From: Celeribacter naphthalenivorans
GTDB taxonomy: Bacteria; Pseudomonadota; Alphaproteobacteria; Rhodobacterales; Rhodobacteraceae
Direction: 5' to 3'
Length of the DNA: 64,000 nucleotides
Assembly (NCBI RefSeq): GCF_020524585.1
Contig: NZ_JAIVLK010000001.1
Span: 124,001-188,000, forward strand
Shown one piece after another: positions 24,270-58,810 of this stretch. The notes below the pieces were generated by a model that made no database searches, had not been told where the DNA came from, and was given only the letters and a program-made list of their open reading frames with translations. Within the stretch, counting starts at the first letter, position 1; the number at the start of each line of letters is the position of its first letter. A program made the position numbers and the translations under genes.

Positions 24270-24821
24270 ATGCTGAACGTCTATGCGTTCCCGGAGGCGT
24301 TTTCGCCTGCCGAATGTGATGCGATTGTGATGCTCGCGCGCGAAGAAGAACTCGCGGACGCTGGGCTGGTGAAAAACCGTTCCGATCATAACCTACGGCG
24401 CGCCGATTTGGCCTGGCTCGATGAGCGCGACGGGGGGGAATGGATCATGGAGCGGATCATGATGCTGGTGGCCGAGGCCAACCGCACGCATTTCGATTTT
24501 GCTCTGACCGAGTTTGGCGAAAGCCCGCAGGTCGCCCGCTATGGCGCCGAGCGTCAGGGGCATTTCACATGGCATTCTGACATCGGCGAGGGCGCTTTGG
24601 CTTCGCGTCGCAAACTGACCATGGTGGTGCAGCTGTCAGAGGCCTCTGACTACCAAGGCGGCGCTCTCGAATTGCAACCCGACGCCAATATTCGCGAAGC
24701 CGCCCGTGCCAAAGGCTCTGCGGTTCTGTTCCCGTCCTTCGTGTTGCACCGGGTGACCCCCGTGACCTCGGGAGAGCGCTTTTCCCTGTCGACTTGGGTG
24801 CATGGACCGGCGTTTCGCTGA
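24270..24821 (+). CDS. 2OG-Fe(II) oxygenase
   Basis: The 183-residue protein belongs to the Fe(II)/2-oxoglutarate dioxygenases, close to PiuC/PKHD-type prolyl-4-hydroxylase-like members. The iron ligands are the H-x-D of FTWHSDIGEG and the distal histidine of FVLHRVTPV. The 2-oxoglutarate arginine is likely that in GERFSLSTWVHG. The substrate is unknown; such proteins may hydroxylate protein side chains. The ATG at 24270 is preferred over an in-frame TTG at 24255. The stop codon overlaps the first bases of the repeated structured element that fills the gap to cobB. Confidence 0.88.
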   Translation: MLNVYAFPEAFSPAECDAIVMLAREEELADAGLVKNRSDHNLRRADLAWLDERDGGEWIMERIMMLVAEANRTHFDFALTEFGESPQVARYGAERQGHFTWHSDIGEGALASRRKLTMVVQLSEASDYQGGALELQPDANIREAARAKGSAVLFPSFVLHRVTPVTSGERFSLSTWVHGPAFR

Positions 24822-25015
24822 GTATTTTTCCAGCAAAGGAAACGACACGTTAACCCTCAAAGGCTTAAGCTGAGCCCACGGTACAGGCGGGAGCGCCGAT
24901 GACCGTCAGCGAAGGAGACGCCCCGGCCCGTGTGGCCGAAATCCCTTCTGGTGACGCGACAGTGCTATGAACCGGCGGCCGGGGCGCATTTGTTTCCTTT
25001 GCTGTGCAAATACTC
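24820..25015. ncRNA. Structured intergenic element, copy A
   Basis: A 196-bp element whose ends are a near-perfect inverted repeat: 24820-24843 pairs with 24992-25015 (3 mismatches in 24). A second helix pairs CGCCCCGGCC (24919-24928) with GGCCGGGGCG (24977-24986). A small conserved hairpin GGC-GGGAGC-GCC (24886-24897) lies inside and is followed by GATGACCGTC. A second copy at 58615-58810 keeps every helix at the same relative position with different stem sequences. It fills the space between two convergent genes. Strand and expression are unknown; it could be an RNA, a terminator-like element or a mobile-derived repeat. Confidence 0.6.
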
Positions 25016-25023
25016 AACTTCGC

Positions 25024-25713
25024 TCAGCGGCACAGAACTTTGTCCACCCATTGCGGCACAACCGTGCTCGCAAGCCCTTCACGCACCTCGTCAAACCGTC
25101 CGCCGGAGGCCTCCAGGTTCAGTTCCATCGTGCGAATGCCAAGCTGGCGTGCCATTTGGCTGAACCCAGCAGCGGGGTAGACGACGCCGGAGGTGCCGAT
25201 GGAGACGAACAGATCGCTGTCTTCCAAAGCCTCCTGGATCGTGTCCATGTGATATGGGATTTCGCCGAACCAGACGATGTCTGGCCGGGTTGCGGGCGCG
25301 CCGCAGGAGGGGCAGGGGGCTGTCACGTCCATCACCATAGGCGCGGGCCAGCGGTGGCCGCAGGCGGCACAAAGCGCGTCTTTCAGAGCGCCATGCATAT
25401 GGATCACGTCGCGCGCGCCTCCACGTTCCAAGAGGTCATCGACATTCTGGGTCACGAGGTAAACCGGCGCATCATGGTCGGCCTGAAGTCGCGCCAGCGC
25501 CTGATGCGCCGCATTGGGGGAGGCCTCTGCCGCCTGAGCACGGCGCATGTTGTAGAAGGTCTGCACAAGTTCGGGGTCGCGGGCAAAGGCCTCTGGCGTG
25601 GCGACATCCTCGACCCGGTGATCCTCCCAGAGCCCGTCCTCGGCGCGAAAGGTTTTGAGGCCGCTTTCTGCCGACAATCCGGCGCCCGAGAGAATGAAAA
25701 TTCCGCCTGTCAT
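25024..25713 (-). CDS. cobB: NAD-dependent protein deacylase (sirtuin)
   Basis: CobB removes acyl groups from protein lysines using NAD+. The 229-residue protein has the NAD-binding ILSGAGLSAESGLKTFR, TQNVDDLLERGG and the catalytic histidine in VIHMHGAL. The zinc ligands are two Cys pairs, CAACG and CPSCG. GEIPYHMD and SIGTSGVVYPAA complete the Rossmann part. Class III sirtuins with desuccinylase activity carry Tyr and Arg in the acyl pocket; YNMRRAQ fits that pattern, so desuccinylation is plausible. AAGGAG lies upstream of the ATG. The gene is divergent from the phosphatase gene. Confidence 0.94.
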   Translation of the reverse strand: MTGGIFILSGAGLSAESGLKTFRAEDGLWEDHRVEDVATPEAFARDPELVQTFYNMRRAQAAEASPNAAHQALARLQADHDAPVYLVTQNVDDLLERGGARDVIHMHGALKDALCAACGHRWPAPMVMDVTAPCPSCGAPATRPDIVWFGEIPYHMDTIQEALEDSDLFVSIGTSGVVYPAAGFSQMARQLGIRTMELNLEASGGRFDEVREGLASTVVPQWVDKVLCR

Positions 25714-58614: not shown

Positions 58615-58810
58615 GAGTATTTTCGCCAAGAAAAAGTCAGGACGCTTACTCAAAGTTAACCTTACCGGATCATGTTCGGAGCTGCGGAACAGGCTGGAGA
58701 GCCGATGACCGTCCAAGGAAAAGTCGCGTGAAGGCCTCAAGGCGGGGCGCAGGCCTGCGGTCGATCGGCTTTCGCGCGCATTTTCGGCTTTTTCTTGGCA
58801 GAAATACTCA
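58615..58810. ncRNA. Structured intergenic element, copy B
   Basis: The second copy of the element at 24820-25015, same length. End helix 58615-58636 pairs with 58789-58810 (2 mismatches in 22). The inner helix pairs CGCGTGAAGG (58725-58734) with CTTTCGCGCG (58770-58779). The conserved hairpin GGC-TGGAGA-GCC (58692-58703) is followed by GATGACCGTC. Stem sequences differ from copy A while pairing and spacing (11 nt from GACCGTC to the inner helix) are kept. It lies between the genes at 58878 and 58567. Confidence 0.6.

Follow-up and report, generated by a model that had tools for sequence, protein, structure and literature searches.

A candidate two-part guide RNA whose hairpin loop and internal guide match dispersed gene-end addresses in Rhodobacteraceae and beyond

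Two intergenic elements in the window, the 64-kb stretch of DNA analysed here, belong to a family of structured RNA elements whose hairpin loop and internal guide match short sequences, or addresses, dispersed at gene ends of the same genome. We propose, with a probability of roughly 0.6, that these elements specify a two-part guide RNA that would recruit a partner to gene ends. Each element would be the gene for a short non-coding guide RNA (~75-115 nt), whose transcription, judging from the positions of boxes and helix, would start at the core hairpin, run through an 11-nt guide and end at a terminator-like helix. The RNA would read a 22-nt address, XYZTATTT-N3-arm, in two parts, one with a loop triplet and one with the guide, and both would pair, in order and antiparallel, with the complementary strand of the address. 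Such pairing is possible along one path because loop and guide are both address-sense and stand in the same order. The constant TATTT-N3 would span the length of the core hairpin, and guides keep a G that would face T/U, for the most part at position 5 or 6 and frequently at position 11. A partner protein would be likely to contact the invariant TATTT and the core's ACA/GATG internal loop, and the complex would act on DNA at gene 3' ends. DNA is suggested as the thing read because addresses point either way with respect to the genes, and, as two address copies flank most RNA genes, the RNA could also act on its own locus. The three-base loop contact is very short, which counts against the two-part reading.

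Copy A (24820-25015) has the length of 196 bp that the initial annotation gave for both elements, and copy B (58615-58809) measures 195 bp. As had been described, the GTTAACC box and the core ACAGGC-N-GGAG-N-GCCGATGACCGTC are present in both copies, and the outer inverted repeat is CAGCAAAGGAAAC in copy A and CCAAGAAAAAG in copy B. The plus strand of copy A begins with a left address (O; 24820-24843) composed of the octamer GAGTATTT (24820-24827), the spacer TTC and the arm CAGCAAAGGAAAC (24831-24843); it overlaps the stop codon of the upstream gene, a 2OG-Fe(II) oxygenase according to Pfam, and addresses of the same class are dispersed in its own genome, G000. Downstream on this strand are TTAACC (24850-24855), the second of two TTAA-like promoter boxes, of which the first is unrecognisable in copy A, and the core hairpin (24878-24906), where the RNA is predicted to start. 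The loop GGAG (24890-24893) of this hairpin holds the triplet GAG (24891-24893), which equals the first three bases of the address. The internal guide CAGCGAAGGAG follows (24907-24917), with a G in place of the addresses' A at 24911 and 24917, and then the terminator-like inner helix (24919-24986), in which 24919-24928 pairs with 24977-24986 through 10 Watson-Crick pairs and after which comes CATTTGTTT. The right address (T; 24992-25015) is inverted and lies on the minus strand, with the arm at 24992-25004, the spacer TGC and AAATACTC at 25008-25015. Beside it, a convergent Sir2-family gene ends at 25024.

Copy A thus takes up the interval between the stop codons of two convergent genes, and this position, like that of the addresses at gene ends, would suit a bidirectional terminator or a 3'-end stabiliser serving a convergent gene pair. 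Such a role would leave the genome-wide matching of guides and addresses and the loop rule, both described below, unexplained, and we consider it highly improbable.

On the plus strand of copy B, the left address (58615-58638) consists of GAGTATTT (58615-58622), the spacer TCG and the arm CCAAGAAAAAGTC (58626-58638), and the promoter-like boxes (58646-58661) are TTAC (58646-58649) and TTAACC (58656-58661). The core hairpin (58684-58712) has the loop GGAG at 58696-58699 with the triplet GAG at 58697-58699, and the internal guide CCAAGGAAAAG (58713-58723) carries a G at 58718 in place of the A of the address. The inner helix (58725-58778) is formed by 12 pairs between 58725-58736 and 58767-58778, including the ten bases quoted by the initial annotation, all of them paired and two of these in G-U pairs, and it is followed by a T-rich stretch. 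The right address (58786-58809), inverted on the minus strand, comprises the arm at 58786-58798, the spacer CAG and AAATACTC at 58802-58809. G000 has four copies in total: A and B in the window and two more, on contigs C8 and C5. The last of these (L335, C5:144335-144413, outside the window) is of the other type and has the loop GGGA, the left end GGATATTT and a 'CCCCCGGGATATTT' context. A small reading frame starting from the ATG of GATGACC (GGAG, 5 nt, ATG) was taken as coincidence, because its length and sequence differ among copies A, B and the C8 copy.

The evidence supports that the element is a structured RNA under selection. In an alignment of 65 copies, which was fitted to the model and so leans towards it, 95.7% of the pair cells were standard pairs and 19 of the 24 pairs had changed on both sides, while only 35-51% were paired in slid-partner controls. 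None of 500 shuffles reached any of five pairing or covariation measures, in agreement with the selection on RNA structure that the initial annotation had proposed from two copies. RNAalifold predicted the same two hairpins from this alignment without a given structure. Folding of single sequences was mildly better than that of shuffles and unremarkable (z -2.07 and -1.37). The plus strand would be the RNA, since G-U pairs were frequent and A-C pairs rare in the 65-copy alignment. No Rfam 15 family matched the window or 15 homologous loci at the gathering threshold, and around copies A and B nothing credible appeared with E up to 10; the initial annotation, too, had not recognised the element as a named family.

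Analysis of 168 upstream regions aligned on the core start revealed two TTAA-like boxes ~11 nt apart, with A at -36 in 85%, T at -27 in 85% and A at -25 in 95% of the regions. T[AT]A was found at -38 in 84 of the 168 regions, the second box in 126 and both boxes in 55, and the box background further upstream was about 0.6 per offset. A weak -10-like signal was seen, with T at -7 in 69% and A at -11 in 48% of the regions and an exact TAnnnT in 13 of the 168. Two TTAA half-sites at such a spacing are the form of a CtrA box, and our guess is that CtrA may control the RNA gene. Judged by the box positions, transcription would begin close to the 5' end of the core hairpin, and the 5' arm would then fall outside the RNA. 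The sequence after the inner helix is 39% T, and TTT occurs within 12 nt in 31 of the 65 copies, which makes a weak T-rich tail; a clear, plain T run follows the helix in L157, L160 and the distant L357. From this arrangement we infer an RNA of ~75-115 nt made up of a 29-nt core hairpin, the 11-nt guide and a terminator-like hairpin. As the promoter-like boxes are located downstream of the 5' arm and upstream of the core, the RNA probably does not include the outer helix, which was one of the two helices originally reported to have matching partner changes and would instead represent two inverted copies of the dispersed address.

The loop of the core hairpin is a tetraloop G-XYZ, in which XYZ equals the first three bases of the terminal octamer XYZTATTT. 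The loop-triplet pairs were GGAG/GAG, GGGA/GGA, GAGG/AGG, GGGG/GGG, GGCG/GCG, GGCA/GCA and GAAG/AAG, and the loop GCCG goes with CCG at the left end only. The hairpin exposing GGAG, initially described as kept, is indeed kept in copies A and B, and family-wide the loop varies along with the terminal octamer. Loop and address triplet agreed at 144 of 152 right ends and 135 of 146 left ends, compared with means of 102 and 93 and maxima of 114 and 105, respectively, in 20,000 shuffling trials. For loci fetched from genome contigs by a GGAG-fixed pattern the comparison is a one-way test, whereas the other loops provide a free test; loops other than GGAG agreed at 22 of 26 right ends and 24 of 26 left ends, which none of 20,000 shuffles reached. 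Outside the family, seven of the eight loci in which an address was visible by eye obeyed the rule (L357, L373, L361 at the right end only, L370, L364, L366 and L371) and L368 did not; no address was visible in L360 and L363. On plasmids, the rule held at five of five loci (L355, L435, L437, L438 and L441), and no matching address was in view at four other plasmid loci.

Elements with both flanks have three copies of the arm: one in the left flank, one immediately downstream of the core and one, inverted, in the right flank. Both the third, internal copy and the link between loop and terminal octamer were absent from the initial annotation. The outer arms covary because the same sequence is found in the internal guide and in dozens of dispersed addresses. 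The right arm was present in 152 of 188 distinct cores and absent in 36 by a criterion that misses some of these, for example L138 and L335 with altered ends. Among the 152 elements, guide and right arm were identical at positions 1-4 and 7-10 in 145-152 of them, an identity inflated by picking the right arm by best complementarity and then AATA, with the address triplet having no part in the choice. The guide had G where the arm had A at position 6 in 113 elements, at position 5 in 30 and at position 11 in 52; since the counted copies are often related, these counts do not stand for independent events. In one locus (L050:1492-1619, G002:C11) the guide region is in tandem duplicate, with two guides after the core.

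A plain miniature inverted-repeat element or a cruciform, without RNA function, would likewise have inverted terminal repeats and dispersed relatives and could occur in both orientations at one locus. It would not, however, be expected to carry promoter-like boxes, many G-U and few A-C pairs, an internal guide with directed A-to-G changes, or a loop that follows a rule, and the cores L157 and L160 have no right-hand address copy alongside. We regard this explanation as very unlikely and continue with the two-part guide RNA.

The addresses, of the form XYZTATTT-N3-arm, are scattered as units without an RNA gene beside them. The arm pattern with up to three mismatches gave 39+33 matches in G000 versus 7+10 for the reversed pattern, which ruled out random background, and GAGTATTT with a near-free tail gave 105 matches versus 43 for its reverse, chance sites included. 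The spacer was 3 nt long in 101 of 113 matched units, 4 nt in 11 and 2 nt in 1; its sequence varies, and the idea that it is templated from the element found no support by eye. With neighbour genes called as the longest open frames, the 61 units of G000 and G016 comprised 27 between convergent genes, 32 between tandem genes, 1 between divergent genes and 1 with one neighbour called. In these two genomes many addresses, whichever way they point, begin no more than 15 nt from a stop codon. It is mostly the GAG end that lies at the stop codon in G000 and G016, and mostly the arm end that abuts the gene in G029 and G287, where 5 of 60 units had divergent neighbours. In the latter two genomes (L374-L433), mostly CCCCCG- or CGGCGG-like/GCCTCCGGCGG bases directly precede GAGTATTT and by eye form the foot of a GC-rich hairpin, a larger REP-like context beside the address that is not general in G000. 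At about position 1500 of L082 and L205, an address seems to overlap N-terminal codons of a reading frame, and an arm switch there appears to alter residues (ILTAKETAK versus ILAKKKTAE, by-hand translation).

Trans-acting bacterial sRNAs have their own promoter, a 5' hairpin, an exposed seed, a terminator-like 3' helix and many targets. The element resembles them in its promoter-like boxes, 5' hairpin, exposed guide, terminator-like helix with the T run of L157, L160 and L357, and many addresses, and a tentative alternative, which we hold to be possible, is a trans-acting regulatory sRNA of the Hfq type. Its seed would pair with mRNAs, or with antisense transcripts, that carry an inverted address after the stop codon, and selection would keep the addresses. 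Many addresses do hug stop codons, and a few address-bearing gene ends are common to different genera, the overlap with the G000 set being 5 of 37 loci in G029 and ~3 of 23 in G287 as raw counts with no chance level. Against a regulatory sRNA stand the mixed orientation of the addresses, from which the mRNA in G000 and G016 mostly receives the guide-sense rather than the complementary sequence, and the fast joint change of many targets documented below, which would be hard for selection alone. Unlike those of known trans-acting sRNAs, moreover, the targets here are many, near-identical, short and in both orientations, and a second, loop-encoded specificity is added.

The correspondence between guides and addresses was measured on 194 units of seven genomes, found by a guide-independent pattern and sampled rather than total (35 in G000, 31 in G015, 31 in G016, 38 in G029, 23 in G287, 16 in G160 and 20 in G393); units flanking an RNA were left out, two in G393 and likewise elsewhere. 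G029, G287, G160 and G393, which represent other genera, were chosen for their many units from ten RNA-bearing genomes. Four of these ten had few units of the GAGTATTT pattern (5 in G365, 4 in G318, 1 in G387 and 2 in G022), the ten pattern units of G344 resembled chance, and G296, with 32 units, was left out of the comparison. A guide counted as fitting if it matched the address throughout its 11 positions, A in place of G being tolerated at 5, 6 and 11 alone. Wobble allowed anywhere had produced false cross-matches (28 of 38 G029 addresses against G000 guides), and the comparison was therefore rerun with this restriction and with one more G287 guide.

Guides of the own genome fitted 143 of the 194 addresses, whereas guides of congeners fitted in 37 of 194 comparisons (46/1164 off-genome minus 9/970) and guides of other genera in 9 of 970 comparisons. 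The remaining 51 of the 194 addresses fitted no sampled own-genome guide, the guide sample of these genomes being partial. In G160, 13 of 16 addresses fitted G160 guides, and the fitting guide was that of core L157, which has no right-hand address copy. The match between guide and address is therefore not a by-product of local inverted duplication, and the case of L157 suggests that the RNA may act in trans. Opposite the central G of the guide, A was kept in 54 of 56 units for guides of classes a-d (G000, G015 and G016) and in 28 of 30 units for the main G029 guide, at a position where G would pair better.

Comparisons within the genus further showed how guides and addresses changed. Twenty-three copies of the element occupy four orthologous loci, in either orientation and with differing arm classes; the guide at locus C is of class b in G000 and of class c in G015 and G016, and that at locus A is of class a in G000 and class d in G016. 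Among 30 loci of each genome, 17 G015 units and 14 G016 units had an orthologous counterpart in G000, in surroundings 85-93% identical. From G000 to G015, class a remained a in six pairs and became f in one, b became c in three and remained b in one, e and e2 were unchanged in one pair each, and four pairs had one side unclassified; class a was thus kept in 6 of 7 pairs and b replaced by c in 3 of 4. From G000 to G016, b became c in four pairs and g in one (b to c in 4/5), a became d in four, stayed a in two, became c in one and unclassified in one (a to d in 4/8), and e was unchanged in one. These switches leave the octamer, the sequence past the arm and in many cases the spacer unchanged, and ~6 of 13 arm positions change, mostly in register, where neutral drift at ~10% divergence would alter ~1 of thirteen. 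Guides and addresses match and have changed together. A simple version of this account is opposed by G015, which retains ~15 class-a addresses although none of the three RNAs found in its 96%-complete assembly is of class a; one class-a RNA (L481) is present in G019, a relative of G015.

As a separate observation, congeners differ in the direction of the element within its flanks (copy A locus 24820-25015; L033, L044, L047 and L048), and the inversion boundaries lie at GAGTATTT/AAATACTC, as if the interior could flip or be exchanged.

REP sequences have RAYT (Y1) transposases as their partner. The addresses are similar to REP sequences in being short repeats, specific to a genome and placed at gene 3' ends either singly or as inverted pairs, and they could be part of an RNA-programmed selfish repeat, in which REP-like mobile addresses would be spread or rewritten by a protein with RNA-derived specificity. 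This would account for genome-specific repeat families with matching RNAs, for arms swapped at orthologous sites with unchanged flanks, for whole elements at one locus that are inverted and of another class, for the GC-rich hairpins that adjoin addresses in G029 and G287, and for the core on plasmids. However, orthologous arms differ mostly by in-register substitutions without a clean insertion, no target duplication was evident at the orthologous sites compared, and no partner was found. The sharing of a neighbour gene cluster by 74 to 94 of 172 loci also argues that the RNA gene itself is not very mobile. We regard a selfish repeat as unlikely. Specificity here, unlike in the REP/RAYT system, matches an RNA and not a protein, and RAYT was rejected as a required partner because Y1_Tnp (PF01797), detected in 31 of 394 family genomes, was not found in G000 and G029, which are full of addresses.

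The two-part guide RNA was also compared with RNAs that read sites in two segments. Bridge RNA has two separate loops, for target and donor DNA. It is described as encoded by IS110 elements together with a recombinase (PMC11208160, PMC11208158). The RNA proposed here resembles bridge RNA as a non-coding RNA with separate programmable segments for short DNA sites, RNA and sites changing together. It differs from bridge RNA in that it would have one variable loop, variable in the triplet only, and one guide, both reading one strand, and in that the sites sit at gene ends. No IS110 protein was found by Pfam among 22 ORFs (20 at distant loci and 2 beside copy A), most chromosomal neighbours having only been clustered.

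In group II introns, the EBS/IBS interaction uses two RNA segments, one of them in a hairpin loop, that read neighbouring stretches of one strand. The two-segment reading with one segment in a hairpin loop is shared with the present RNA, which is, by contrast, only ~100 nt long, and no intron family appeared in the Rfam scans; readings as a self-splicing intron or a retron were set aside for want of family support. No description of the RNA or the address was found among the matches listed in the open-licence full-text literature. A loop-encoded triplet combined with a separate short guide that matches genome-wide addresses fits none of the kinds compared.

Few systems of sequence-specific recognition programmed by small RNAs are known in bacteria. 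The address code described here can be read from genomes alone, leading from loop triplet and 11-nt guide to address, and it holds across Rhodobacteraceae and beyond, with other letters in each genome examined. It offers a handle on the old question of short genome-specific repeats kept at bacterial gene ends, and the protein partner it implies is a testable search target that could become a programmable tool.

The core pattern with up to one mismatch was present in 11 of 20 congeneric genomes. A covariance model (R1) built from 17 congeneric copies matched 299 of 394 Rhodobacteraceae genomes, a sample with close to one genome per genus, and found between 1 and 7 copies in each genome matched; the model search suggested in the initial annotation thus yielded further homologues with compensatory changes. 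A second model (R2, 65 copies) matched 13 of 385 class-wide genomes, 8 of the 13 outside the family, and the core was visible by eye in 7 of these 8 and not in loci L362 and L367. Good matches to the 30-nt core were found in intergenic plasmid DNA of Cereibacter, Paracoccus, Leisingera, Phaeobacter, Mesorhizobium, Rhizobium, Shinella, Azospirillum and others, and on plasmids of the gammaproteobacteria Legionella and Thiothrix; nine plasmid loci were looked at individually. The initial placement as a structured RNA or dispersed repeat of Rhodobacterales is therefore retained for the structured RNA and widened beyond that order. The Streptomyces matches among those listed were weak and inside genes, and Agrobacterium rows were also counted. 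The core was not found in 50,697 phage records (E up to 1), nor its exact GGAG form in 2.9 million viral contigs.

Clusters of neighbouring genes in 172 sampled loci reached 74 loci for a GST-like gene and 85 to 94 loci for others, the latter obtained by single linkage with antisense frames included. The conserved neighbours identified by Pfam (L218-L334 and L115-L169) included GST-like, acyl-CoA dehydrogenase and FadJ-like genes, the last two of fatty-acid oxidation. A conserved fatty-acid gene was considered as the partner, and this neighbourhood was read as the ancestral location instead. Among 20 selected ORFs at distant loci, Pfam identified Rep3, RPA, MobA/MobL, ParA, ordinary transposases and unrelated enzymes, none of them common to all loci. 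The neighbour clusters speak for the RNA gene being an old resident, and the plasmid copies for one that also travels on plasmids. Tentatively, the two-part guide RNA may be extended to an RNA-guided DNA system, in which the ~100-nt RNA would direct a protein to gene-end addresses and keep or rewrite them while plasmids carry RNAs between hosts; we put this forward as a possibility, and a doubtful one. On plasmids or plasmid-like contigs (L357, L360, L373, L364 and L436-L441), the RNA gene was often near genes for a replication initiator, ParA or a relaxase. In the small genome G641, three contigs each carry a similar copy of the RNA.
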